A DNA stretch of 48,695 bases from an uncultured cyanobacterium (GTDB lineage Bacteria; Cyanobacteriota; Cyanobacteriia; Cyanobacteriales; Geitlerinemataceae): NCBI GenBank assembly GCA_937899645.1, contig CALCCD010000065.1:1-48695 (forward strand). The letters are read 5' to 3'. This document shows positions 12,638-38,418 of this stretch, one piece after another; the stretch's first letter is position 1; the number at the start of each line of letters is the position of its first letter. A program made the position numbers and the translations under genes. The notes under the pieces are model-generated. The model searched no databases, had not been told where the DNA came from, and saw only the letters and a list, made by a program, of their open reading frames with translations.

Positions 12638-13834
12638 CTAGGGCAAATCGTAGCCGAGGATGTTGTAGAACTTCGTCTTGGCCGCGTCGAGCGCGGCGGC
12701 GTCCGCCGGGAAGTAACCCGTTTCGCCGATCGTTTGGTTGATGTTGGTCATCATGAACGAGAAGAACGCCTCGACCTGTTTCTGAGAGAGCGATTCATTG
12801 GCGACGTAGATGTAGAGCGGACGGGTGAAGGGATAGCGCCCGCTCGAAACCGAGGCCGCCGAGGCTTTGACGCCGTCGATAGCGATCGTCGCAAGTACCG
12901 AGCCGTTTTGCTGGTAGTAGGCGTAGCTAAAGAAGCTCAGGGCGTACTTGTTGGCGCTCGTTTCCTGGGCGAGGAACTCGACGCCGGAGTCGGAGGTGGT
13001 ATTGAGCGCATTGACGATTTCCGTGCGATCCGCGATGCCGACGCGCTCGGCGAAGACGTCTAGCGTGCCGGAGCCCAGGTCGGGGACGTAGCGCACGATC
13101 GGCTCGTTCGGCCAGTCCGCGTTAACATCCGACCACTTTTCCGCCGAAAACAGCTCTTTGAGCGTTTCCACCGACGCGTCCTCGAGCCAGTCATTGTCGG
13201 GGTGAACGACGACAACGACGGCGTCTTGGCCGATTTGAAACTCAGAGAGGGTACGACCGTTGGCTTGGCAGGCTGCCGTTTCTTCTGGCTTGGCTTGGCG
13301 GCTGGCCATCGTCATATCGGCCTCGCCGCGCTCGCAGTAGAGCGAAAAGCCCTCGCCGCTGCCCACGGCGTCGATTTTCATCAGGTCGGCGTAGCCCTCT
13401 TCGATAAAGCGCTCGTAGAGCTTCTCGACGATCGGGGCGATCGTATCGCTGCCAGTCACGTGCAGGTCGCCTTCGACATCGAGCGGATCGAACTCCGGCA
13501 TGGGAATATTACCGCTCGGCGGTGGGGGCTTGGGCGCTGCGGGCGGCGGCGGAAGCTGAGCTGAGGTTTGAACGGAGAAGAGATCTTCCGGGCTTTGCAG
13601 GCCGCTGTCGTCGAACTCGAACCGGCTCGCATCGCCGCATCCGGCGATCGCCAGTCCCAGACAAGCGCACAGCGAAGCGAGCCGCAGCTTCCGGAAAGTG
13701 GCGCGGCGGGCGCGACCGTGGCGGGAAGCTCGGTGGATGCGGGCGGCTGTCGTCACCGGTCCGGTCTCTGGTGCGGCGAGCGATACGACAATGGGCGCGG
13801 CGATCGGTGGGTTTTTCTCAGTCGTCATCTTCAT
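12638..13834 (-). CDS. PstS/SphX-like phosphate-binding lipoprotein
   Basis: A periplasmic solute-binding protein of the PstS family. Residues about 50-66 form a lipoprotein signal ending LGLAIAGC, giving a lipidated Cys. A 48-residue basic N-terminal extension precedes it, so the true start may be internal. After a Pro-rich linker the binding fold follows: VTGSDTIAPIVEKLYERF, then GSGEGFSLYCERGEAD and VPDLGSGTLDVFAE, with the Ser/Gly anion-binding loops expected of phosphate binders. The first ATG overlaps the end of the MscS gene by 17 bp, so the two are probably coupled. No PstC, PstA or PstB is nearby, so it may sense rather than transport. SphX-like sulfate or phosphate binding is the alternative. 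Confidence 0.85.
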   Translation of the reverse strand: MKMTTEKNPPIAAPIVVSLAAPETGPVTTAARIHRASRHGRARRATFRKLRLASLCACLGLAIAGCGDASRFEFDDSGLQSPEDLFSVQTSAQLPPPPAAPKPPPPSGNIPMPEFDPLDVEGDLHVTGSDTIAPIVEKLYERFIEEGYADLMKIDAVGSGEGFSLYCERGEADMTMASRQAKPEETAACQANGRTLSEFQIGQDAVVVVVHPDNDWLEDASVETLKELFSAEKWSDVNADWPNEPIVRYVPDLGSGTLDVFAERVGIADRTEIVNALNTTSDSGVEFLAQETSANKYALSFFSYAYYQQNGSVLATIAIDGVKASAASVSSGRYPFTRPLYIYVANESLSQKQVEAFFSFMMTNINQTIGETGYFPADAAALDAAKTKFYNILGYDLP

Positions 13835-15368
13835 CGTCCTCGAGACTCGAGTCGCTCAGGTCTTCCTGCGAAGGCTTTCCGCTTTTGGAGAAGCCCGCTG
13901 CTGCCAGCATGCGCTCGCTGGTGCGCGCCCGGTAGTCGCGCATAAACTCTAGGGTGCGGCGGCGATCGGCCAGCAAACTGTTGAGGTCTTGGGCGAAGCG
14001 GGGGTTGCGCTGAATTAGCTCGGCTAGGAGCGACATCGGCAGCGCGATCGCCCGCAGGTCTTGAGTCGTATGGACGGTCACGAGGCTGGCCTCGGTGGGC
14101 AGCAGCACCATCTCGCCGAAAAAATCTCCCGGCCCGAGCTGGGCGACGTCGAACCGGTCTTCGACGCCTTCGTAAATAAGCTGGGTGCGACCGGACAGGA
14201 TCACGTAAAACGACGCGTCTAGCTCGCCCGCTTCCACGACGTTTTCGCCGACGCCGTAATACTCGACGATGACTTCCCGAGCGACCCGCTCGATCGTCTC
14301 GGGACGCAGCGCCTGGAAGTAAGACAGGGACTGCAAGCGCTCGGCGATCGCGGTGGGTTGCTGGTCGGCAGGCACCAGATCGCGATCGACGGTGTACTGC
14401 AACGATACTGGCAGCGGCATCGTCAGACCGCTGCGCCGCGCCGCGTAATAAATCCGCGTCATGACCTTGTTGCGATAGCCGCCTTTTTTCGTGAAGTCGC
14501 GCACGTAGTACTTCAGCTCGTAGGAAATTGAAAAATCGTCGTAGGATAGCGTCCGCACCGACGGTGCGGGCTCGCGCTCGATGCCTTCGGTTTCCGCCGC
14601 GATTTCGAGCAATACTTCGCGCACGCGGTTCGGCGGATCGTCGTAGGAGAACCGAATCGAAATGCCCTGGCCGTGGAGGCCGTTGAGCAGGGTGTAGTTG
14701 TAGATCGAGCCTTTCGCTAGCACGCCGTTGGGGACGATCACCACGTCCTTGTTGCCGGTCATGATGCGCACGGCGCGCCAGTTGAGCTCGATCACTTCGC
14801 CTTCCACATCGCCGACCCGCAGCCAGTCGCCGACCTTAAACGGCGCTTCAAAAATCAGCAGAAAGCCGGAAACCAGGTTGCTGAGCGTATCCTGAAGCGC
14901 CAGGGCGATTACCAATGAGCCAACCCCCAGCGCCTGGGCAACCCGCCCGAGATCGACGTTCCAGACCGTCGCGAGGACGTACCCGCCGATGCAGAGGATG
15001 ACGAACAGCCGCGCGCACTGAAAGAGCAGGTTGGGAATTTGCAACTGCCAGCGGTATTGCGGCGAGTTTTCGACGCAGATCTCGCCGAGGAATTGCAACA
15101 CGACGAAGATGCTGGCGATACCGAGGAGCGTTGCGAGTGCCTTGACGGCCGGGTGCGTGACGGGAAGCTGCAGGATATTCACCGCCACGATCAGCAGCGC
15201 CGCCAGCGGCATTACAAAGTTGCGCAACTGCACGATCGGCTTCGCGATCGGGCTGGCGCGGCGCTGGAGGCGGGTGACGCTCTCTTCGAGAGCGAGCGTG
15301 ACGCAGGGGAAAACGATAACGACGATCGTCCCCCAGACGAGCATAGATTGGTTGACGTTTTCAAACAC
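13818..15368 (-). CDS. MscS-family channel with C-terminal cNMP-binding domain
   Basis: A 516-residue membrane protein. Membrane segments lie at about 9-27, 50-68, 77-96, 113-137 and the pore helix region 147-173 (LGVGSLVIALALQDTLSNLVSG). The MscS beta domain follows with FKVGDWLRVGDVEGEV and IVPNGVLAKGSIYNYT. Residues 350-460 form a cyclic-nucleotide-binding fold with FYVILSGRTQLIYEG and GPGDFFGEMVLLP. In that fold the phosphate-contacting Arg of CRP-type domains aligns with Glu426 (PTEASLVTV), so cNMP binding is doubtful. The tail is Ser/Asp-rich and acidic. The gene lies 161 bp downstream of the cyclase-like receptor and overlaps the PstS-like gene, suggesting one transcription unit. Confidence 0.9.
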   Translation of the reverse strand: MFENVNQSMLVWGTIVVIVFPCVTLALEESVTRLQRRASPIAKPIVQLRNFVMPLAALLIVAVNILQLPVTHPAVKALATLLGIASIFVVLQFLGEICVENSPQYRWQLQIPNLLFQCARLFVILCIGGYVLATVWNVDLGRVAQALGVGSLVIALALQDTLSNLVSGFLLIFEAPFKVGDWLRVGDVEGEVIELNWRAVRIMTGNKDVVIVPNGVLAKGSIYNYTLLNGLHGQGISIRFSYDDPPNRVREVLLEIAAETEGIEREPAPSVRTLSYDDFSISYELKYYVRDFTKKGGYRNKVMTRIYYAARRSGLTMPLPVSLQYTVDRDLVPADQQPTAIAERLQSLSYFQALRPETIERVAREVIVEYYGVGENVVEAGELDASFYVILSGRTQLIYEGVEDRFDVAQLGPGDFFGEMVLLPTEASLVTVHTTQDLRAIALPMSLLAELIQRNPRFAQDLNSLLADRRRTLEFMRDYRARTSERMLAAAGFSKSGKPSQEDLSDSSLEDDEDDD

Positions 15369-15529
15369 GTTCTGTTCTCGAGCGGGGGACGTGAACTGGT
15401 GGAAGGCGAGAGAGCGAAGCTAAGGAAGAGCCGGAAAACTCGCTCGCTCGGTGGAGATGCAGGGTGTGGAGGCGCGGGGTCGAAACGCGGAGCGGAGCGG
15501 TGGGGACAGGTCCGAAGGCGGCCGGCGCG

Positions 15530-17695
15530 TTAGCCTGCCGATGGGGCTGGGGACAGGCTGGCCTCGTCTTCGCTGCCCATGGCTTGGAGGGTAATTTCCC
15601 AGGCGTCGATGCGCTCGCCAGTATCGGCCACCCAAACAGGCTCGTGGGACGTAAAGCTGTAAGAATCTTGCAGGCGGTTGAAGACACTCGCAGAGACGAG
15701 CACCGAAGCCTGGGGAGCGGAGGCTTTCAGGGCCATCGCCAAGGTGACCGCAGGTCCCCAGATATTGTAAGAGAACTTCTCACGACCGATAATTCCCGCC
15801 TGAACGCTGCCGGAATAGACGCCCGCCCGCAGGCGCAGGCGTCCTTTATGGAGGTTGCCGAAGCGGATGATGGCGTCTTCGGCCTCAACGATATATTCAA
15901 GCAGGCGCTGGGTGTGATCCATGCGCGGGCGGCTCAGGCCGCAGACGGCGATAAAGTCGTCGCCGATTAGCGTCAGACGCTCGACGTCAAACTGGACGGC
16001 GATCGCGTCGAGAGTACCGATCAGCTCGTCGAGGAGTTCCGCACCGTTTTGGGCGTCGAGGTTATCGATCAGGTCGTCGAAGCCGTCGATGCTGGCCGCC
16101 ATCACGGTGATTTCCTGGAAGTCGCTGGCCGCGAGGCGATCGCCCTGCTGGCGGCGCTCGACGGCCAGCGCGGGCAGCACGTTTAGCAGCAGCGCCTCGT
16201 TTTCCTGAGTCTTCTGGCGGACGACATCATACTGCTGGCGCACCTTACCGACGGTGATATTGAAGCTCTCGGCCAGCTCCAGGAACTCATCGCGCGATTC
16301 GACCTTAACTTCGGCATCGAAGTTGCCGTCTTTGATGCGCCGCGCGCCTTCGATGGTTCGATCGATCGGCGTGACGAAGCGGGTCGCTACCAACCGCGCC
16401 ACGAACGTGATCGCCAAAATCAACAGCACCGTGGAAATCAGCAGAAACTCCTGAAGCTTGCGCACTGGCTCGTAGGCTTCGGAGGTGCCCATCTCGGCGA
16501 CGATCGCCCAGTCCACGCCCTGAATATCGAGGGGCGCGAACGAGCTGAGTACGGAGGTGTTGCGGTAGCCCTGAGTCACGCGGGTGTCTGCCGTGCCGCC
16601 GATCGCGGCCTGGGCGGCTTCGGTGCGGACGTTTTGCAGCAGGATCGAGGTGTTGAAGCGCTCGATAAGCCCGATCGTGCTTTCCGGGGTTCCGGCGGAC
16701 TGGAGATCTTTTTTATATTGCTCGGGATCTTCAATTAAGAAGCGCGAAATCGATCGCATTTTGTAGTCCGAGCCCACCAGGTAGGTCTCACCCGTGTCGC
16801 CGAGTCCGTCGCGTTTCCACTGCTCGTTGCCCGTCAGGACTTTGTTAATTTCGTCCACCGGGAGCTGGATCGCCAGGATGCCGATCGCGTGAGGTCCGTT
16901 GTAGATCGGCCCTGCGATAAACGCCGTTGGAGCCGCGTAGGACGGACGGTAGGGCGCGAAGTCCACGAGCTGGATCGAGCCGCGCTCGCGGTTCTCCAGG
17001 ACGCGCTCGACGACGGTGGCCAGGTTCGTTTTGAGGTACGCGCCGCGGTAGAGGTTCGAGCCGAAGTCGGTTTCTTTGCTGACGGAATAAACGACGTTCC
17101 CGGTTTTGTGGTCGATCAGGAACATGTCGTAGTAGCCGAAGCGCTCGGTCAGGTTCGAGAAGATTTCGTGGTACTTGGCGTGTACTTTGCTGTAGCCGCT
17201 GCCGTCCTGAGCGTCGCGCAGCTCGTCCTTCGAGCCGACATCGGAGCTGTTGTTGGCGATGTAGTGGTACTGGAGGTAGGTTCCGGCTTGGGTCGTGGGT
17301 CGGTAGTTCTCAAAATTGGGCTGGCCGCCGATGCTTTTCGAGAGGCGCGGAAAAAATTCGGTTTCGTAGTAGGTCTCGAGTTCGGTCGTCCACTCGTCGG
17401 AGATAAACTCGAAGTTGAGCTGCTTGAAGCTGCGGTTGAATTCCACCATCGCATCGACGATCATCCGATCTTCGGTGAGGGTGGCGACGTGGTTGTAGAG
17501 ATTCTGGAAGTACGATTCGATTTGGTACGCCTTTGAGGCGCGGACGCTGACGAGCTGGTTGGAGATTGCGGTTTTGAGGATATTGCGGGCACGGTTGCCG
17601 CTCAGGTAGCTCACGATCGCGATCGAGCCGAGACTGACCGACAGCAGCATCGCCATCAGCTTGGTTTTGATGCGGAGTTTGCCGAAGTCAATCAT
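15530..17695 (-). CDS. dCache-HAMP receptor with degenerate class III cyclase domain
   Basis: A 721-residue transmembrane receptor. Span 1 is at about 12-32, an extracytoplasmic double Cache domain at 40-410, span 2 at 415-436, HAMP at 437-490, a short coil, and a class III nucleotide cyclase fold at 526-702. Catalytic residues are largely lost: the first metal Asp is Ser535 (VMAASIDGF), the base-selecting Lys is Thr575, and the WGDxVN...R motif reads WGPAVTLAMA, giving Thr651 for Asn and Ala655 for Arg. Only the second metal Asp (Asp579, IGDD) remains. It is therefore best read as a pseudo-cyclase signalling domain. Downstream in the same direction are the MscS-cNMP channel and the PstS-like gene. 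The ligand of the Cache domain is unknown. Confidence 0.88.
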   Translation of the reverse strand: MIDFGKLRIKTKLMAMLLSVSLGSIAIVSYLSGNRARNILKTAISNQLVSVRASKAYQIESYFQNLYNHVATLTEDRMIVDAMVEFNRSFKQLNFEFISDEWTTELETYYETEFFPRLSKSIGGQPNFENYRPTTQAGTYLQYHYIANNSSDVGSKDELRDAQDGSGYSKVHAKYHEIFSNLTERFGYYDMFLIDHKTGNVVYSVSKETDFGSNLYRGAYLKTNLATVVERVLENRERGSIQLVDFAPYRPSYAAPTAFIAGPIYNGPHAIGILAIQLPVDEINKVLTGNEQWKRDGLGDTGETYLVGSDYKMRSISRFLIEDPEQYKKDLQSAGTPESTIGLIERFNTSILLQNVRTEAAQAAIGGTADTRVTQGYRNTSVLSSFAPLDIQGVDWAIVAEMGTSEAYEPVRKLQEFLLISTVLLILAITFVARLVATRFVTPIDRTIEGARRIKDGNFDAEVKVESRDEFLELAESFNITVGKVRQQYDVVRQKTQENEALLLNVLPALAVERRQQGDRLAASDFQEITVMAASIDGFDDLIDNLDAQNGAELLDELIGTLDAIAVQFDVERLTLIGDDFIAVCGLSRPRMDHTQRLLEYIVEAEDAIIRFGNLHKGRLRLRAGVYSGSVQAGIIGREKFSYNIWGPAVTLAMALKASAPQASVLVSASVFNRLQDSYSFTSHEPVWVADTGERIDAWEITLQAMGSEDEASLSPAPSAG

Positions 17696-26958: not shown

Positions 26959-28782
26959 TCAAGTCTCCGAGGGTCGCAGCGAGAGCTTCGCCAGACCGAA
27001 GCACAGCAGCGCATTCAGCCCCAAGAAGCCGCGCGCCACGAACCCCTTCCCCAACCAGAGCAGCTCCGGGTCGGCGACGGCGCTAACCGCGAGGCAGGCG
27101 CTGACGCCGAGCAGCGAGCCGATCGCCCACCACTTCAGATTGCGGTGTCCGAGCAGCAGCACCAGCAGCCCTGCCGGAATCAAGACGCTGGCGAAAATCG
27201 GGTTGAGCGCTGCGCTGCCTTGGACTGCCGTGCCTAGCTCGGGAATCGAGCTACCGGCCACTCGCAGCGGCCACTGGGGCAGGTCGAAGATGTAGAAACC
27301 GCGCAGGAAGAACAGACCCGAGCTGCCCATAACGATGCCGGTCGCCAGCGGCCAGCTCCAGCGAAACGGGAAATAGACACGCAACAGCCACGCCAGCAGG
27401 TAGCCACCGATTACCATCGCCAGCTTCATCGGCAGGGCGACAACGCCGCCATCGATCCAGAATTTCGGGTTTAGATAACCGTTGTCGCGCAGCCAGCGAG
27501 CGAAGTCGCGGGGCGTGATTTGGCCGTCGATCGCGAGCTTGACGGCGGCAGCGGCGTCGAGTTTGCCCGCGCCGAAGTGGTTGAGCGGGTCGTCGCTGGG
27601 TTCGAGCGCCGATTGCAGGACGATCTCGCGTATTTCATCGGGGTCGTCGATGCCAGCGGCTTTGACCAGCGCGGCAACACCGGCAACGTGGGGTGCGGCC
27701 ATGCTCGTGCCCTGAAGCGAGGCGAAGACGCTCTCGCCTTTGGCGTCGATCGTGTTTTGCAGGATGCCGCCGATTTGCGATTCTTTAGTGTTGCCGCCGG
27801 GTGCTGCGATATCAACGCCCGCGCCGAAGTTGGAATACGGAGCCTTTGCGCCGGTGGAATCCACTGCCGAAACGCCAACGACGCGCTCGTAGCGTGCTGG
27901 GTAGCCCGCTGAGTTTTGGTTGGCGTTGCCCGCTGCGGCGATGACGACAACGCCCTGACTGTGGGCGTGTTCGATCGCCTCTTTCATCAGCGAGCTTTCG
28001 CCACCGCCGCCGAGGCTCATATTAATGACATCTGCGCCGTTGTCCGCTGCAAAGCGGATTGCTTCGGCGATATCGGCCACCGTGCCGCCACCGCCTTTGC
28101 CCAGGACTTTCAGCGGCATAATCGTCGCGCCGTGGGCGATGCCCGCCACGCCGTAGCCGTTGTTGGTGGACTGGGCGATCGTCCCGGCGACGTGGGTTCC
28201 GTGGCCGTTGTCGTCGGTGGCGTCGGGGCGATCGTTGACGAAGTCGTAGCCGTCGGCAAGCTCGGTCTCTTTGAGGTCGGGGACGGGGCTAACGCCGGTG
28301 TCGATAACGGCCACCGTCACGCCACCGCCGTTGCTGTCGAGCCACGCCTGCTCGACGCCGATCGCTTTGAAGTTCCACTGTTTCGCATAGAGCGGGTCGT
28401 TAGGTACGGTGGGGCCGCTATCTTTGCCGCGACCGCCGCCGTCTAGCCCGACCGCCGAAATCTCAGGGATGCTGTAAACGTAGTTGGGCTCGACAAACTC
28501 GGTAACGTCGCGCAGTTCCTGGCGCAGCGTGTCGAGCAGTGCCGCGTCGCCGCGAACGATATAGACGTTATCTGCAGCGGAGAATTCACTGTTGAAGCGA
28601 GGGGCGAGACCGTATTCGTCTGCGATCGCGCCGATCGCGCGCTCCACCTCAGCTGGTGCGATATCTTCGCGGAAGTCGAGCACCAGCGAGTCGTAGGTTC
28701 CCTGACTGGCGAGGCCGTCGAAGCTGGCGATCGCCCAGCCGAGACCGAGGCAAAACAGCAGCGCGAGCAGAAATCTTTTCAT
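26959..28782 (-). CDS. Subtilisin-like serine protease (S8) with C-terminal membrane domain
   Basis: A 607-residue exported protease. The start at ATG 28782 opens a signal peptide or anchor (MKRFLLALLFCLGLGWAIAS). Residues about 30-105 form an inhibitor-like propeptide domain. The catalytic domain carries the full triad: Asp161 in AVIDTGVSP, His194 in NGHGTHVAGT and Ser360 in LQGTSMAAPHVAG; the oxyanion Asn286 is in AAAGNAN. Beyond residue 430, about five hydrophobic segments follow (for example PLRVAGSSI to LLVLLLGHRNL), which is unusual for secreted subtilases and suggests membrane anchoring of the protease. A small beta protein follows 44 bp downstream. The gene is divergent from the AI-2E family transporter. 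The substrate is unknown. Confidence 0.93.
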   Translation of the reverse strand: MKRFLLALLFCLGLGWAIASFDGLASQGTYDSLVLDFREDIAPAEVERAIGAIADEYGLAPRFNSEFSAADNVYIVRGDAALLDTLRQELRDVTEFVEPNYVYSIPEISAVGLDGGGRGKDSGPTVPNDPLYAKQWNFKAIGVEQAWLDSNGGGVTVAVIDTGVSPVPDLKETELADGYDFVNDRPDATDDNGHGTHVAGTIAQSTNNGYGVAGIAHGATIMPLKVLGKGGGGTVADIAEAIRFAADNGADVINMSLGGGGESSLMKEAIEHAHSQGVVVIAAAGNANQNSAGYPARYERVVGVSAVDSTGAKAPYSNFGAGVDIAAPGGNTKESQIGGILQNTIDAKGESVFASLQGTSMAAPHVAGVAALVKAAGIDDPDEIREIVLQSALEPSDDPLNHFGAGKLDAAAAVKLAIDGQITPRDFARWLRDNGYLNPKFWIDGGVVALPMKLAMVIGGYLLAWLLRVYFPFRWSWPLATGIVMGSSGLFFLRGFYIFDLPQWPLRVAGSSIPELGTAVQGSAALNPIFASVLIPAGLLVLLLGHRNLKWWAIGSLLGVSACLAVSAVADPELLWLGKGFVARGFLGLNALLCFGLAKLSLRPSET

Positions 28783-28934
28783 GGCGAGCGTGCGAGAGCG
28801 GATTGCTCCAACCATAGCCGATCGATTCCGGTCGGGTCGAATCCGTACCGTCGCCCGACAAGCGCGATACCATTTCAGCATTGGCGATATCGAGCGCCGT
28901 GCGATCGCCCCGTGAGTCGATCTAATCTCAAGCT

Positions 28935-31036: not shown

Positions 31037-32350
31037 TCAACTTCCCCAAAAACGATCGATACGCTCCTGTGCCTGCGCCAACGCCACCTCCGGCGACTCA
31101 CCGAGCAGAGCCTGCTCGATCGCTCGACCCAGCGCATCCGACAGCCGCGTATAGCCCGAAACAATCGGCCGCGATCGCGCCACCACCATCTGATTTAGGA
31201 ACACATCCAACACCGGACGCGACGCCACGTATTCCCGATATTCCTGACTCTCGCGCGACTTGAGATTCACCGGCAGATAGCCCGTTCCGATCGCCCACTC
31301 CGTCTGGAACTCCTCGCTGAGGGCATACTCCAGGAACTCTAGCGCCGCCGCTTCTCGTGCCGGATCGGTCTTCATTACGAATAGGTGCTCGCCCCCGACG
31401 ATCGTTGCGGCCTCTTTTTGCTGAGGGATGGGCATCACGCCGTAATCGACGCCCGAAGCGTTGAGCTGCTCTAGAGTCCAGGGGCCGGTGAGCTGCATCG
31501 CCACCCGTCCGGCGAGGAAGTCGTCTAGCTCGAAGCCGCGCTCCGGCTGGGAGAGGATAGCCGAGTCGTTGTCGATCGCCGTTGCCCACAGCTCCAGCGC
31601 GCTCTGTGCCTCCGGCGTTGCCAGCGTCGGCAGACCGTCGCGAATCGGGTCGCCGCCAGCACTGTAAAGGAAGGGCAACCAAGTAAAGACCGTCCACTCG
31701 CCCTTGCCGAGGGGCAGCAACATCCCGTGGCGATCGGCGTCCGTCGAGAGCTGCTGCGAGACTTCGGCGAACTCCGCCCAGGTGGTGGGCAGCTTCTCAA
31801 TGCCCGCTTCTTCAAACAAGCTGGGGCGATAGAAAATGCCGACGTTGTTGGTCGCCATCGGCACGGAGCAGATGCGATCGTCCATCACCATCGCCTCGCG
31901 CAGGGCGGGGTCGAGGTTTTGGGCCGTTGTGGAGTCAGCGAACCAATCATCGAGCGGCACGATCGCGTCGAGGTCGATAAATTTGCCAGTGGCGGTCGGC
32001 GAAAACCAGAGGATATCCGGCGGCACGTCGCCGACGACAGCGGTCAGCACCTTGGGCATCTGCTGCTCGCTCTGTCCGGCGTAAATCGAGTTGACTTGGA
32101 TGTCGAGATGGTTGGCGTTGAAACGATCAACGAGGCGATCGAATACGTCGCGGTTAGGCGGCGGGTTGATGCCCTGCCAGAGATTGAGCTCGATCGGTTG
32201 GTTGCCAGTGGCCGGGTCTTGAGTCGAGACAGGCGTGCAGGCGTAGCAAATTAGACCGGTCGCAATCGCGCAGAGCCAAAAGACCCAGCGCTGCCGCAAC
32301 AGGCGGGAGCGAGGAGCGGACACGGTGGAAGATCTGGATGGGATTGGCAC
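31037..32350 (-). CDS. ABC transporter solute-binding lipoprotein (sugar type)
   Basis: An extracytoplasmic solute-binding protein of the maltose/sugar class (SBP family 1). The N-terminus (basic RLLRQRW, then a hydrophobic stretch ending LICYAC) is a lipoprotein signal. Family segments are ELNLWQGINPPPNRDVFDRL, DILWFSPTATGKFIDL, PMATNNVGIFYRPSLFEEAG and the C-terminal EFLEYALSEEFQTEWAIGTGYLP. Length is 437 residues. No permease or ATPase gene is adjacent; it is divergent from a second SBP (32499). The stop codon lies 2 bp from a MITE-like element. The substrate could be a disaccharide or compatible solute, which sequence alone does not settle. Confidence 0.88.
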   Translation of the reverse strand: MPIPSRSSTVSAPRSRLLRQRWVFWLCAIATGLICYACTPVSTQDPATGNQPIELNLWQGINPPPNRDVFDRLVDRFNANHLDIQVNSIYAGQSEQQMPKVLTAVVGDVPPDILWFSPTATGKFIDLDAIVPLDDWFADSTTAQNLDPALREAMVMDDRICSVPMATNNVGIFYRPSLFEEAGIEKLPTTWAEFAEVSQQLSTDADRHGMLLPLGKGEWTVFTWLPFLYSAGGDPIRDGLPTLATPEAQSALELWATAIDNDSAILSQPERGFELDDFLAGRVAMQLTGPWTLEQLNASGVDYGVMPIPQQKEAATIVGGEHLFVMKTDPAREAAALEFLEYALSEEFQTEWAIGTGYLPVNLKSRESQEYREYVASRPVLDVFLNQMVVARSRPIVSGYTRLSDALGRAIEQALLGESPEVALAQAQERIDRFWGS

Positions 32351-32498
32351 GTTCGGAGGGTTCGGAAGAGTGCAGTTAAACCTTCTTTAAATCCTAGGGT
32401 TTGTCCGTACGTTTCGCGCGCGGAAGCGATCCCCGCCACAGTGACAGAAGAATCGCGCGATAAAATCAAGACGACACTGAATCGAAGTCGCTGCTGCC

Positions 32499-33773
32499 AT
32501 GCTTTCGTTTTTCGCTCGCCGCCGCAATCGCTGGCTGACCGCGATCGCCGCCCTGTTCGCTGCCCTGTCGATCGGGGTGGCCATTGCCCGACAGCCCGTG
32601 ACGATTTCGCTGCTGATGCAGGCCCCGGAAGCCTCGAACTGGGAGTCGATCGTCGAGGCGTTCGAGCGGGAAAATCCCGATATTCGGCTGAACGTGGTGG
32701 CAGGGCCAAATGCCTCCAACCTCGTTGAGGATCTGTACACCTCGTCGTTTTTGCTGGGCAGCTCGCCCTACGACCTGGCGTATATGGATATCGTCTGGAC
32801 GCCGAAGTTCGCGGCGGCGGGCTGGCTGGAAGACCTCTCCGATCGCGCCGCCCCAGCGATGCTAAGCGAATTCCTCGCGGGCGATGTAAACGGCGGGCGC
32901 TATGACGGCGGACTGTATCGCATTCCCTTCCGCTCCGATGCCGGGATGCTCTACTACCGCAAGGATTTGCTCGACGCCGCCGATCGCGAGCCGCCCGCCA
33001 CCTTTGCCGAGCTGGCCGAAATTTCCCAGCAGCTCCAGGGCGGCGGTGAAGTGGAATGGGGCTATCTGTGGCAGGGTCGCCAGTACGAAGGGCTTTCGGC
33101 GATGTTTGTCGAGATTTTGGCCGGTTTTGGCGGCACGTGGATCGACCCGGAGACGAAGGCTGTAGGGCTGGACGCACCGGAGGCGATCGCGGCGATCGAG
33201 TTTTTGCAGTCCACCGTTACCGACGGCCTCACCCCTGAAGGGGTTACGACCTATCAGGAAGAAGAGTCGCGCCTACTGTTCCAGAACGGCAAGACGGCCT
33301 TTCTGCGGAACTGGCCTTACGTGTGGCGCTTGGCGAACGATCCGGAGTCGCCGATCGCGGGCAAGCTCGGAATTGTCCCGATGCCCAGCGTGCCAGGGGC
33401 GACGGGCGGCGCGTGCCAGGGCGGCTGGGGCTTGGGCCTCGTTAAGGGGACAAAGCACCCAGAGGAAGCGTGGCGGGCGATCGAGTTCATCACCAGCGAG
33501 GCGGTGCAGAAGCAGTTTTCGATCGATACCGGCTACGTCCCCAGCCGCACGGCGCTGTTTGCCGACCCGGAGATCTTGGCCGAATATCCCCACTACCCGC
33601 AGCTTCTGGAGGTGTTGGGGCAGTCGGTGTTGCGGCCACCGGTGGCGCAGTACGCCCAGGCGTCGGATATTTTGCAGCGCTATCTGAGTGCGGCGCTGAC
33701 CGGGCGGCTGGATGCGGAGACGGCGATGGCGCGCGCAGCGGGTGAAACGCGGCAGTTACTCGATGCGGGTTAG
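32499..33773 (+). CDS. ABC transporter solute-binding protein (trehalose/maltose-like)
   Basis: A second SBP family 1 protein of 424 residues, divergent from the one at 31037 over a 148-bp shared promoter region. The N-terminus has basic residues (ARRRNRW), a hydrophobic stretch (LTAIAALFAALSIGVA) and no lipobox Cys, so it is exported or anchored by an uncleaved segment. The fold markers are ISLLMQAPEASNWESIVEAF, LAYMDIVWTPKFAAAGWL, IPFRSDAGMLYYRKDLLD and GACQGGWGLGLVKGT, then DTGYVPSRTALF. It resembles the trehalose- or glucosylglycerol-binding type. No partner permease lies downstream; the MntA/HepT toxin-antitoxin genes follow 4 bp later. Confidence 0.9.
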   Translation: MLSFFARRRNRWLTAIAALFAALSIGVAIARQPVTISLLMQAPEASNWESIVEAFERENPDIRLNVVAGPNASNLVEDLYTSSFLLGSSPYDLAYMDIVWTPKFAAAGWLEDLSDRAAPAMLSEFLAGDVNGGRYDGGLYRIPFRSDAGMLYYRKDLLDAADREPPATFAELAEISQQLQGGGEVEWGYLWQGRQYEGLSAMFVEILAGFGGTWIDPETKAVGLDAPEAIAAIEFLQSTVTDGLTPEGVTTYQEEESRLLFQNGKTAFLRNWPYVWRLANDPESPIAGKLGIVPMPSVPGATGGACQGGWGLGLVKGTKHPEEAWRAIEFITSEAVQKQFSIDTGYVPSRTALFADPEILAEYPHYPQLLEVLGQSVLRPPVAQYAQASDILQRYLSAALTGRLDAETAMARAAGETRQLLDAG

Positions 33774-35395: not shown

Positions 35396-35754
35396 GGCGC
35401 GAAAGAATTGGGAAACGACTTGAAAAATAGCCGGAAAACGGCTGGAAAAACAAGAGAGTGGCGCGGGCTTTGACGTACCGTTCGTCGCGCCTGCCGCACA
35501 AGCCGGACGACCCGAGCGACTTATCGAACAACTCGCATGATAGTCGCCTGGGTTGCGACATGACAGGGCGATCGACAGATCGAAGCGAATCAGCGAATCT
35601 CGGGGCGAGCGAATCTTTCGGGCTCCTCGATGGTGTTACTCCTGTCGTCCCCGAAGTGCAGGGCGTACGATGGTCTCATGCAAAAGCGGCGCGCAGGAGG
35701 CCGCTCAAACCGATCGCCTGCGGTCGCTGCTCTCCTCGCTATCGAACGGGCTCT
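35396..35754. other. Divergent ftsQ/kinase region
   Basis: The 359-bp gap between divergent ftsQ and the hybrid kinase must hold both promoters. The kinase frame stays open back to 35458, but that part has no domain character. I see no RNA structure or small gene. Confidence 0.4.
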
Positions 35755-38418
35755 ATGTTTGCTGATTCCATTTCGCTGTCTCAAACTGACGTGCGGACGG
35801 CGATCGTGCGCGATCCGCTGACGCTCGGCGGCGATACGCGCATTGTCGATGCGCTCTCGCAGATGAGCAGCCTTCGGGGGGCGTGCCCGTCGATCTACGC
35901 GTTCTCCGGCGGGGAGGACGAGCTGTTCGTTAACGCGCGATCGAGCTGTATTTTCGTTACCAACGACTGTGGTAAGCCCGTCGGCATTTTGACCGATCGT
36001 GATATCGTCCGGCTCAGCACCGAGGTCGAGGATTTCCACCAGCGCCCGATTGGCGAGGTGATGAGCGTGCCGCTGATTTCGCTGAAGGAGTCGCAGCTTA
36101 CCGACCTGTTCGCGGCGGTGTCGCTGCTGCAAACTCGCGAGATCCGCCACCTGCCGCTCCTCGACGAGTCGGGCTTTTTAACAGGGGTGGTAACGCACGA
36201 GACACTGCGGCAGATGGCGCGCTCGCTCGACCTGCTTCGCCTGCGCTGCGTTGAAGAAATAATGACCCCGCAAGTGGTGACGGCCAAGCCGACGGATTCG
36301 ATCGCGACCGCCGCGCGATTAATGAACCAGCATCGAGTGAGCTGCATCGTGCTGGTGGAGGCGGTCGCTGATGTCAAAAGCGATGCTGGAGCCAGTGCTG
36401 GAGCCAGTGCTGGAGCCGAGCTGGAGGGCTCTGTGGAGGCCGAGATGGAGATCTCGGTGGAGGCCGATACGCCGCTGATGACACCGGTAGGGCTGCTGAC
36501 CGAGCGGGATTTGGTGCAATTTCATGCGCTGGGGCTCGACCTGGAGTCGCACACCGCCGGGTCGCTGATGAACCGGGAATGCCAGCCGATTTCGCCGCAG
36601 GATACGCTGCTGGACGTGCGCGAAGTGATGGAGTGCCACCGGCTGTATTACCTGGCGGTGACGGACGATCGCGGTGAGCTGGTGGGCATCGTGACCCAGA
36701 GCGATGTGCTCTCGCTGCTCAGCCCAATGGAGCTGTACCGCACAAACGAAGTGCTAGGGCAGCGCGCTAAGCAGCTCGAGGCGGAGAAGACGACGCTGCT
36801 GGCGATGCGAACCCAGGAGGTAGAGGAGAAGGTGCAGGAGCGATCGACGGCGCTATCGACGGCGCTGTGGGTTCGGGCCGAGCGCGAGACGCTGCTCGTC
36901 GAGCTGAGCAAGCAGATCCACGCGTCGTTTAACGTGCGCGACATTCTCGCGACAGCAGTGCAGGAGGTGCGGGCGCTGCTGGCGTGCGATCGCGTCACGA
37001 TTTGCCGTTTGGTGGACGATCGTCGCGTGCTGGCGCTGGTGGCGGAGTCGGGCGACCCGAACGGCACGCACGTCCCCGCCGATATCCCCACGGAACTAAC
37101 GACGCTCGATGACGAGTGGTTCGAGCGCTACGCGTCGGGCGAGCGCTGCGTGGCGTCGGATACGCGCGCCGAGAAGCGCGACGGCTGCCCGCCGAGATTG
37201 ACCCGCGACGGTAGACAAATTGGCGAGGATATTAGCGCCAAGGTGGTGGTGCCGATTTTTGTCGGGGTAGACCTTTGGGGGCTACTGATCGCCAGCGAAC
37301 GATCGCAGCCGCGCGATTGGGAGGCTAGCGAGCTGAAGTTCCTCGATCGATTGGTCGTGCAGATCGCGATCGCCGTCCGGCAGGCGACGGCTTACGAGCA
37401 GCTCGAACAGGAACTCCGCGAACGCAAGCAGGCAGAGCTGTTGCTCCAGTCGCTCAACCAATCGCTAGAGGTGCGCGTCGCCGAACGCACCCGGGAACTG
37501 GTCAACCTTTCGACGCTGCAAAACGCCATCCTCAACGGTGCGAACTATTCGATCGTCGCCACCAACCCTCAGGGCGTCATTTTGCAGATGAATGCTTCCG
37601 CCGAGGAGGTTCTGGGCTGCAAGTCCAGCGAAGTGGTGGGCCAGCGCTCGATCGAAAGCTTCCACCGAACCGACGAGATCGCCAACACCGCCGTGACGCT
37701 CTCCCTGGAGCTGGGCACGAAGATCGAGCCCGGGTTTGCGACGCTGGTGGCCAAGGCGCGGCGGGGGCTGGCCAGCGATCGCGAGTGGACGTACGTGGCT
37801 GAGGACGGCAGCCAAACCCCGATGGCGGTGTCGGTGACCGCGCTGCGCGATCGCGAGCTGACGCTGCTGGGCTTTGTGGCGATCGGGCGCAACCTCAGCG
37901 AGCGACGGCGATCGAAGGTGCGGCTGCGGCAACTGTCCGAGCGGCTGACGCTGGCGGTGATGGCGGCGCAAATCGGCATCTGGGACTGGGATATCACTCG
38001 CGATCGGCTGACCTGGGACGATCGCATGTACGAGCTGTACGGTGTCACCCGCAGCAGCGCGGACGTGACCTTCAACACCTGGGCGGACACGGTACATCCG
38101 GACGACCTGGAGCGCTGCAAAACGGCGATCGCCGCGACGCTGGCAGGCGGCAGCGAATTCGAGACGGACTTCCGCATCGTCCACCCCAACGGCACGGTTC
38201 GCCATATCCAGGCGTACTCTCAAACCACCTTCGACGCGACGGGCAGGGCGGTGCGGCTGATCGGCATGAACTTCGATATTACCGATCGCGTCCGTATCGA
38301 GCAGCAGTCGCGGGCACAGGCGCGGCGCGAAAAGCTGCTGCGGCAGATCGGCGAGCGTATCCGCCAAACCCTCGATTTACACAACGTTTTCGAGGTGGCG
38401 ACGCGGGAAATCCGCTAG
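35755..38418 (+). CDS. Hybrid sensor kinase, N-terminal part (CBS-GAF-PAS), ends at in-frame TAG
   Basis: The first 887 residues of a very large sensor. ATG 35755 (MFADSISLSQ) is chosen because CBS domains follow at once; the frame is open further upstream. Order: about four CBS motifs (for example CIFVTNDCGKPVGILTDRD, VVTHETLRQMARSL and VGLLTERDLVQF) at 30-330, a coil, a GAF domain at 390-560 (HASFNVRDILATAVQEV, CDRVTICRLVDD), a PAS domain near 600-710 and a second PAS at about 740-850. It stops in the first helix of a second GAF at REIR-TAG. The same frame continues without another stop for 2046 nt through the kinase core. Only this TAG separates the two parts. Confidence 0.85.
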   Translation: MFADSISLSQTDVRTAIVRDPLTLGGDTRIVDALSQMSSLRGACPSIYAFSGGEDELFVNARSSCIFVTNDCGKPVGILTDRDIVRLSTEVEDFHQRPIGEVMSVPLISLKESQLTDLFAAVSLLQTREIRHLPLLDESGFLTGVVTHETLRQMARSLDLLRLRCVEEIMTPQVVTAKPTDSIATAARLMNQHRVSCIVLVEAVADVKSDAGASAGASAGAELEGSVEAEMEISVEADTPLMTPVGLLTERDLVQFHALGLDLESHTAGSLMNRECQPISPQDTLLDVREVMECHRLYYLAVTDDRGELVGIVTQSDVLSLLSPMELYRTNEVLGQRAKQLEAEKTTLLAMRTQEVEEKVQERSTALSTALWVRAERETLLVELSKQIHASFNVRDILATAVQEVRALLACDRVTICRLVDDRRVLALVAESGDPNGTHVPADIPTELTTLDDEWFERYASGERCVASDTRAEKRDGCPPRLTRDGRQIGEDISAKVVVPIFVGVDLWGLLIASERSQPRDWEASELKFLDRLVVQIAIAVRQATAYEQLEQELRERKQAELLLQSLNQSLEVRVAERTRELVNLSTLQNAILNGANYSIVATNPQGVILQMNASAEEVLGCKSSEVVGQRSIESFHRTDEIANTAVTLSLELGTKIEPGFATLVAKARRGLASDREWTYVAEDGSQTPMAVSVTALRDRELTLLGFVAIGRNLSERRRSKVRLRQLSERLTLAVMAAQIGIWDWDITRDRLTWDDRMYELYGVTRSSADVTFNTWADTVHPDDLERCKTAIAATLAGGSEFETDFRIVHPNGTVRHIQAYSQTTFDATGRAVRLIGMNFDITDRVRIEQQSRAQARREKLLRQIGERIRQTLDLHNVFEVATREIR
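36385..36417 (+). repeat. 12-bp in-frame tandem repeat in CBS linker
   Basis: GCTGGAGCCAGT occurs at 36385-36396 and 36397-36408, then GCTGGAGCC at 36409-36417. It encodes a Gly-Ala-Ser-Ala-rich loop in the middle of a CBS motif, followed by an acidic stretch with a repeated SVEA. Copy number could vary without breaking the frame. Confidence 0.8.
38416..38418 (+). other. In-frame amber codon interrupting the hybrid kinase
   Basis: TAG follows REIR and precedes YLGVDRVGIFQF, which continues the GAF domain in the same frame. GAF domains of this kind usually read EIRQ before such a sequence, so CAG changed to TAG explains the stop. Sequencing error, strain-specific nonsense mutation or amber readthrough are all possible. 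Confidence 0.85.

Follow-up and report, generated by a model that had tools for sequence, protein, structure and literature searches.

Bacterial cyclic nucleotide-gated (bCNG) channels, members of the MscS superfamily reportedly described by Caldwell in 2010 and Malcolm in 2012, combine the MscS membrane and beta domains with a C-terminal cyclic nucleotide-binding domain (CNBD). The locus described here encodes a channel of this architecture and lies in a window of 48,695 nucleotides, the whole stretch of DNA analysed, from an uncultured cyanobacterium. Unlike bCNG channels, its receptor-linked family has the cassette Arg replaced, mostly by Ser, and is constantly paired with a Cache-HAMP-cyclase receptor. 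That receptor shares the fold of class III nucleotide cyclases (Z about 24–25 to CyaB 3r5g, 5o5k, CyaC 1wc0 and membrane ACs), but in the window it lacks five of the six catalytic residues and it carries the receptor family-specific R597 and W699. The CNBD also shows weak similarity to Pycsar effectors (PADLOC PycTIR, E 1.5e-7), whereas the receptor matches PycC only at E 0.0036 and no TIR domain was found. With only this similarity and no sign of a defence role, a defence system was set aside. No description of the receptor-channel pair was found in the titles and abstracts of the open-licence papers searched, and a search of open-licence papers for cyclase pseudoenzymes gave nothing.

The earlier note had described three co-directional genes, and these are real, all being minus-strand open reading frames:

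15530..17695, minus strand: dCache-HAMP-pseudocyclase receptor (721 aa ORF; Pfam domains; family co-occurs with the channel)
16496..17581, minus strand: dCache-like extracytoplasmic sensor, receptor residues 39–400 (Pfam dCache_1, 24.8 bits)
16238..16393, minus strand: HAMP domain, receptor residues 435–486 (Pfam 39.9 bits, E 5e-10, above cut-off)
15626..16129, minus strand: class III cyclase fold, receptor residues 523–690 (Pfam Guanylate_cyc, alignments, AF2 model)
13818..15368, minus strand: MscS-type channel with C-terminal CNBD (516 aa, GTG start; Pfam; structure model)
14691..14891, minus strand: MscS beta domain, channel residues 160–226 (Pfam 76.9 bits)
14004..14261, minus strand: cNMP_binding domain, channel residues 370–455 (Pfam PF00027, 45.9 bits; Glu419 kept, Arg replaced by Ser428)
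12638..13834, minus strand: PstS-like lipoprotein, lipobox IAGC with Cys66 (398 aa; Pfam PBP_like_2, NCBIfam TIGR02136)

The receptor and channel genes are separated by 161 bp in the window, and their pairing recurs, with order and strand conserved, in records whose titles name several phyla among the matches listed. Of 91 non-redundant receptors followed by at least 1300 bp of sequence, 87 have a channel gene immediately downstream in the same orientation; 86 of these passed the filter and L102 was added because its channel was placed just past the receptor stop. Distances in relatives were measured between open frames rather than start codons. The non-redundant set was derived from 134 relatives by removing 21 at ≥97% sensor identity and 3 fragments, leaving 110, of which 10 without a cyclase domain or cut short were excluded to give the 100 receptors counted below. 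As the 80 loci collected from named records are the best 80 of at least 507 relatives and favour close kin, a 386-genome cyanobacterial sample provides a more even and less biased view. Here 26 genomes contain the cyclase-form receptor family, and the channel family is found in exactly these 26; 27/28 receptor loci have the channel next to them. These profiles (A1, A3) were built from family members with at most 4 candidates scored per genome, and the channel family was delimited by an E-value gap (hits at 3e-148 or better, the next at 4e-94) chosen after the search. Recurrence across several phyla and in the even cyanobacterial sample means that the pairing is more than chance. Two receptors with the same sensor and an MCP output instead, L093 and L181, have no adjoining channel, so it is the cyclase fold that the channel accompanies.

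One apparent receptor-channel fusion, L133, was set aside as evidence of direct coupling. If the channel N-terminus lies outside, as in MscS, a cytoplasmic HAMP domain joined to the third membrane helix of the channel would, on our reading, put the beta domain outside. A search of the 386 genomes with L133, scoring at most two candidates per genome, gave no further stop-free single-frame fusion. Frames of ~1200 aa in that search are not fusions, receptor and channel having been counted through a stop or spacer, and the long ORF that surrounds a channel in G103 is an artefact of reading from stop to stop. Scans for promoters and terminators were near chance, with 1 promoter-like site against 1.6 expected and 10 terminator-like sites against 6.7.

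The window receptor has a cyclase homology domain (Guanylate_cyc, 97.4 bits against a cut-off of 21.9, E 1e-27). Its AF2 model (pLDDT 84.6) superposes on CyaB 3r5g with Z 25.0 and 1.9 Å over 184 residues. The sensor scores 22.9–24.8 bits against dCache_1, below the Pfam gathering cut-off of 45, while 21/22 receptor family members match dCache_1 at E ≤ 0.001. There are 25 near-full-length homologues in other genomes among the matches listed. The cyclase domain retains its fold and is under purifying selection: between L054 and L055 its dN/dS is 0.10, within a range of about 0.10–0.21 across the receptor domains, and between the window and L052, where dS is saturated, it is ~0.13 or less if dS is at least 1.5.

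Alignment to solved cyclases and to those of the same genome places the six catalytic positions at S535, T575, D579, N644, T651 and A655; all residue positions in receptor and channel come from such sequence alignment. Of the metal-binding Asp pair of active enzymes, the first is replaced by S535 and the second is kept as D579, about which the earlier note was silent. T575 and N644 stand at the purine-selecting Lys and Asp/Thr positions, and T651 and A655 at those of the transition-state Asn and Arg. The Ser, Thr, Thr and Ala already noted thus hold against both the solved enzymes and 11 other cyclase-domain proteins of the same genome, 9 of which read DKDDNR and 2 DKDTNR, against STDNTA in the window. 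The change of the purine-site Asp to N644 is a fifth loss that the earlier note did not include. With these residues gone, the fold probably makes no cyclic nucleotide, as had been proposed. Most of the losses are common to the close relatives L052 and L053.

Across the family all six residues are intact in 10/100 receptors, so a cyclase product may have served the circuit ancestrally. The transition-state Arg is kept in 18/100 and the first metal Asp in 46/100, and the tree requires at least 10 and at least 11 changes of these residues, respectively. R597 is present in 96/100 receptors, at a position that is Ala in 14/18 ordinary cyclases, and W699 in 89/100, where 17/18 ordinary cyclases have Tyr. 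Both exceed every catalytic residue, the best of which is kept in at most 72/100, and the cyclase domain consequently appears, from its residue conservation, to be constrained for something other than catalysis. R597 is also kept in 3/4 relatives without an adjacent downstream channel, so its conservation does not establish channel contact. The purine-site pair (Lys with Asp/Thr/Ser) is kept together in 68/100 receptors, which makes nucleotide binding likely in many relatives, though not in the window.

The channel has the MscS superfamily pore helix and beta domain (PF00924, 76.9 bits; PF21082, 40.2 bits) and, as we read the helices of the predicted model, about five membrane helices. Its CNBD model resembles the CNB-B domain of PKA RI-alpha (5kjy; Z 18.1, 2.2 Å over 139 residues) and retains the phosphate-binding cassette Glu as Glu419. 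The cassette reads G418-E-M-V-L-L-P-T-E-A-S428, and the column of the Arg that contacts the cyclic phosphate is occupied by Ser428. The earlier note had placed a Glu at the Arg of CRP; that Glu lies two residues upstream. With the Arg replaced, the suggestion that this domain probably does not bind cyclic nucleotide in the usual way is supported. The Arg is missing in 83/83 readable partner channels as aligned, one of which (L077) is ambiguous in alignment; Ser replaces it in 75/83 and the cassette Glu is kept in 71/83. The nearest unlinked MscS-CNBD relatives keep the Arg, and some other unlinked MscS-CNBDs are likewise without it. That the replacement is a nearly invariant Ser suggests a functional exchange, not decay. 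The channel is less constrained than the receptor, with dN/dS of 0.31 for the CNBD and 0.39 for the membrane part in the one pair measured.

Joint degeneration of the cyclase and channel, as the earlier note worded it, is rejected. Of the 10 fully intact cyclases, 8 have a readable partner channel, and none of these channels has the Arg either, while the nearest unlinked relatives keep it, so that its loss is a fixed trait of the family. The first metal Asp is lost in 11/12 receptors whose channel has lost the CNBD Glu against 31/71 where the Glu is kept (Fisher p 0.003), an association represented by 5 independent pairs on well-supported branches, too few for a tree-based test.

The lipoprotein belongs to the PBP_like_2 superfamily (106.7 bits against a Pfam gathering threshold of 27, E 2e-30) and is related in sequence to PstS family phosphate-binding proteins (TIGR02136, 4jwo; E 5e-35 to 4jwo). 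Unlike them, it falls under the TIGR02136 cut-off of NCBIfam (188.2 bits against 206.6) and adjoins a channel gene; no pst transporter gene was found among the window neighbours examined. Its proposed 17-bp overlap with the channel gene stands if the first ATG is used; another ATG, at −11, or a GTG, at +61, could also serve as the start. A PstS-like gene occurs within 5.5 kb downstream in only 18/100 relatives, confined to a single part of the tree, which argues against a conserved cyclase-MscS-PstS triplet. The candidate signalling unit is supported in the form of the receptor-channel pair, without the PstS-like gene as a conserved part. The first metal Asp is lost in 18/18 PstS-linked receptors against 24/61 of those that have no such link over at least 4 kb of downstream sequence (Fisher p 1e-6). 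All linked members fall in one 33-member tree group (an unresolved fork, support 94; at least 5 changes) with only 3 independent pairs, and PstS linkage was discarded as independent evidence of cyclase decay.

That the pairing recurs even where the cyclase looks dead suggests that the fold has been retained to relay a signal and not to make a messenger. Our preferred model, held tentatively at a little below an even chance, is a receptor-operated MscS-type channel pair in which the Cache receptor relays through the cyclase fold without cyclic nucleotide. The direction of signalling would be inward: the dCache sensor would read an extracellular cue, perhaps offered in the window's lineage by the PstS-like lipoprotein, and the HAMP domain and coiled-coil would transmit the change to the cyclase fold, which in the window is probably catalytically incapable. 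The fold may then alter the state of the neighbouring-gene channel via its cytoplasmic CNBD, through physical contact or local complex formation. The intact active sites of a minority of receptors, the purine-site pair kept in many relatives and the weaker constraint on the CNBD weigh against this model. A broader version is possible but rather doubtful, namely that this is a widespread receptor-operated channel in which the cyclase fold, impaired mostly and dead in the window, is a non-enzymatic relay and the CNBD has been refitted, Arg to Ser, from binding nucleotide to contacting the relay.

Signalling may alternatively work through bound ligands on both sides, with the cyclase fold binding ATP or GTP without turnover in much of the family, the Arg-less CNBD binding a different small molecule, for instance a nucleoside, and no product involved. 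Retention of the purine-site pair in most receptors, together with the frequent cassette Glu and Ser, is consistent with this. There is also precedent in the trypanosomatid PKA regulatory subunits, in which, according to PMC10959531, the Arg is likewise replaced by polar residues and purine nucleosides are bound. A structure of this kind, 6hyq, ranks 16 among the matches of the channel model, with a Z of 17.1 near those of ordinary cAMP binders. However, the window lacks the purine-site Lys and Asp. The Glu that contacts the nucleoside ribose in trypanosomatids (PKA Ala202 position) is also missing, the window having Val421 there and its relatives often Ala or Ser, and the protein is moreover a channel, not a kinase. 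We consider such sensing unlikely, and a working cyclic-nucleotide circuit more unlikely still. Such a circuit would require residual or heterodimeric catalysis, or cAMP from other cyclases, acting on an Arg-free CNBD. The intact minority of receptors and the 11 other cyclase-domain proteins of the genome, with their residues intact, would allow it, and L220, a more distantly related MscS-CNBD gene that has the usual Arg, adjoins a cyclase gene in which alignment shows the metal Asp pair, the Lys, the Asn and the Arg to be present. Against it, the window domain supplies neither half of a shared site, its metal half lacking the first Asp and its other half the Lys, Asp, Asn and Arg, and the Arg is absent throughout the readable partner channels, allowing for the ambiguity of L077.

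Receptor and channel might instead be co-regulated neighbours that serve one response without interacting. Adjacency alone does not prove contact, and the window pair is separated by its 161-bp spacer, yet constant order and strand in several phyla among the matches listed and exact genome-level co-occurrence across the 386-genome sample make this improbable, to a slightly greater degree than a working circuit. Plain decay of an old cyclase gene would account for the missing catalytic residues of the window but not for an open frame, a retained fold, low dN/dS across the receptor domains, or losses mostly common to L052 and L053, and is very improbable.

If the preferred receptor-operated model is true, bacteria would have a modular, receptor-based means of opening an MscS-type channel from outside, needing neither membrane tension nor a diffusible messenger, and one of the major enzyme folds would repeatedly have become a relay. 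The family includes intact, Arg-lost and fully dead sites, a natural series for asking when catalysis stopped mattering, and CNBDs with a conserved Ser for Arg provide a defined set in which to seek a new ligand.

The conserved unit to which the window's genes belong is, judged from gene order, a pair: a receptor with dCache, HAMP and cyclase-fold domains, and an MscS-type channel with a C-terminal cNMP-binding domain (CNBD). As the earlier note described, three co-directional genes are present in the window, with Pfam domains as follows.

15530–17695, minus strand: receptor, 721 aa; dCache_1 (weak), HAMP, Guanylate_cyc
13818–15368, minus strand: channel, 516 aa; MscS beta domain, cNMP_binding
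12638–13834, minus strand: lipoprotein, 398 aa; PBP_like_2

Pfam places a fibrillin-family gene and a glycosyltransferase upstream of the set on the same strand, and a convergent FTR1 permease gene downstream. Elsewhere in the window are a DUF5942 domain fused to a subtilase (26959–28881), two adjoining divergent solute-binding protein genes of SBP_bac families (31037–33773) and a multi-sensor protein with CBS, GAF and PAS domains (35458–38418).

Receptors were drawn from 99 kin genomes, including the window's own, from the top 80 among at least 507 relatives in a genome-contig scan, and from an even sample of 386 cyanobacterial genomes. Leaving out near-identical entries and fragments reduced the set from 134 to 110, of which 100 have a cyclase domain. 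The channel is the next gene, on the same strand, in 87 of the 91 receptors that have 1300 bp or more of sequence downstream (86 by filter, plus locus L102, which the filter missed). The four exceptions are L073, L141, L182 and L108, where the channel is divergent upstream. In the 386-genome sample the sensor occurs in 28 genomes at 30 loci; at two of these (genomes G158 and G386) it has no joined cyclase domain, the one examined by Pfam, L181, being an MCP, and the channel is next at 27 of the remaining 28. The 26 genomes with a cyclase-form receptor are exactly those with the channel family, whose best hits there are 6e-160 or better, the best elsewhere being 4e-94. By record title, pair members come from Cyanobacteria and from MAGs labelled Poribacteria, Gammaproteobacteria, Saprospiraceae and Chloroflexi, labels that can err.

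Several loci depart from the usual arrangement. At L093 (6932–9421) and L181 (3270–5735) a sensor of this family carries an MCP signalling domain in place of the cyclase, and no channel gene adjoins it. The channel frame opens in frame right after the receptor stop in 9 of 90 pairs (L060, 5916–9540, and eight others), where stop read-through would yield a single receptor–channel polypeptide; chance expects some such cases among close pairs. At L165 (3412–6710) about 950 bp splits the receptor gene within its cyclase part, and the channel still follows. Both frames are interrupted at L053 (3112–7055), likely through sequencing error, since the title of the matching record L083 gives a coverage of 2.9.

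Across relatives, cyclase decay is graded and repeated, with receptor and channel staying together throughout. The six catalytic positions, which we take from the class III cyclase literature to be two metal Asp, a purine-site Lys and Asp/Thr, and a transition-state Asn and Arg, are all kept in 10 of the 100 non-redundant receptors. The transition-state Arg is the sole loss in 21, which we do not call dead because activity may survive loss of this Arg alone. Overall it survives in 18 receptors, the first metal Asp in 46, and the Lys and purine Asp in 72 each. A quick tree of 99 sensor domains, with SH-aLRT support only and several long branches, requires at least 10 changes for the transition-state Arg and at least 11 for the metal Asp.

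Alignment of the window receptor to solved adenylyl cyclases and own-genome paralogues gives Ser535, Thr575, Asp579, Asn644, Thr651 and Ala655, where all 11 other cyclase-domain proteins found in its genome have D, K, D, D or T, N and R. This bears out the four substitutions claimed earlier and adds a fifth, purine-site Asp to Asn (N644). With five losses, the domain is predicted to supply neither half of a shared active site. The cyclase fold is nevertheless kept in an AF2 model of HAMP and cyclase (mean pLDDT 84.6), which matches CyaB (Z 25.0, 1.9 Å over 184 residues) and 5o5k (Z 24.9, 2.4 Å over 215 residues).

Substitution rates show that the cyclase domain is constrained. Between L054 and L055, dN/dS is 0.10 for this domain, 0.19 for dCache and 0.21 for HAMP; between the window and L052, where synonymous sites are saturated, it has an upper bound of about 0.13 assuming dS of at least 1.5. 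The L054/L055 values for the channel are 0.10 (pore and beta domain), 0.31 (CNBD) and 0.39 (outer membrane helices). R597 is kept in 96 and W699 in 89 of 100 receptors, above the most conserved catalytic position (72); 18 ordinary cyclases have Ala at the former position in 14 and Tyr at the latter in 17. As R597 is retained in three of the four relatives without an adjacent downstream channel, we do not propose that it contacts the channel.

In the window channel, the phosphate-contacting Arg position of the phosphate-binding cassette aligns with Ser428, and the Glu previously read in place of the CRP Arg was a mistake. Ser occupies position 428 in at least 90% of 54 aligned channels. Among 83 non-redundant readable partner channels the Arg column holds Ser in 75, Asn in five, Gly in two, Thr in one and Arg in none, L077 being an outlier in which other gap placement would bring Arg into the column; the cassette Glu is retained in 71. 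Ser is found in L218 and L219, two family channels not adjoining a receptor, and the usual Arg in all of the closest unlinked channels (L214–L217, L220, L221). In the receptor-linked family the change from Arg to Ser appears to be a derived state that has become fixed. Loss of the Arg is not unique to that family, since more distant cyanobacterial MscS-CNBDs have Arg in some cases and Ser, Tyr or Cys in others. At L220 (4228–7913) a cyclase gene and an MscS-CNBD gene that has the usual Arg (GEPRAATV) stand in reversed order, the channel gene overlapping the cyclase's open frame. As aligned, this cyclase has both metal Asp, the Lys, the Asn and the Arg, and the locus may be a conventional cyclic-nucleotide counterpart of the receptor–channel pair.

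The product of the third gene resembles PstS-type binding proteins and has a lipobox. Of the three-gene unit proposed in the earlier note the receptor–channel pair stands, and the lipoprotein falls away as a constant member: 18 of 100 receptors have a gene of its family on their own strand no more than 5.5 kb downstream. Mostly this gene follows the channel immediately; in L130, L155 and L160 it stands farther off, and in L108 it comes straight after the receptor. The first metal Asp has been lost from all 18 receptors, a link that is not independent evidence as they fall in one part of the tree. If the first ATG is the start, the 17-bp overlap of lipoprotein start with channel stop is present as noted; it recurs in L084, with 4-bp overlaps in L067, L070 and L074. 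The lipoprotein N-terminus has a dN/dS near 0.5 (window versus L053). Channel and lipoprotein lie away from the receptor gene in one genome (G062), where at L218 (5387–7928) the channel adjoins the PstS-like gene without a receptor, with a gene for a LysR-type regulator upstream.

bCNG channels and class III cyclases are already known kinds; a conserved pair in which an MscS-CNBD channel lacking the Arg accompanies a receptor whose cyclase is mostly impaired had no description in the literature searched, chiefly open-licence papers. One locus, L133 (665–3406), is a single open frame in which dCache-HAMP runs directly into an MscS-CNBD channel at its third membrane helix, the cyclase missing. 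A natural fusion of this kind would have strongly supported receptor–channel coupling, but we set it aside: it was seen once, on a 5.6-kb MAG contig, and its topology looks inconsistent, which argues against a functional fusion.

The best rival account is that cyclase fold and CNBD each bind a small molecule. Nucleoside binding is possible for a CNBD without Arg, as trypanosomatid PKA demonstrates (PMC10959531); the channel CNBD likewise lacks Arg, but the Glu with which the PKA binds nucleoside is absent here. We favour instead a non-catalytic relay, in which the receptor would pass its signal to the channel through the cyclase fold, possibly by direct contact, because pairing persists without catalysis, fold and family-specific residues are both conserved, and it is the cyclase fold, not the sensor, that the channel accompanies, the two MCP forms of the receptor having no channel beside them.
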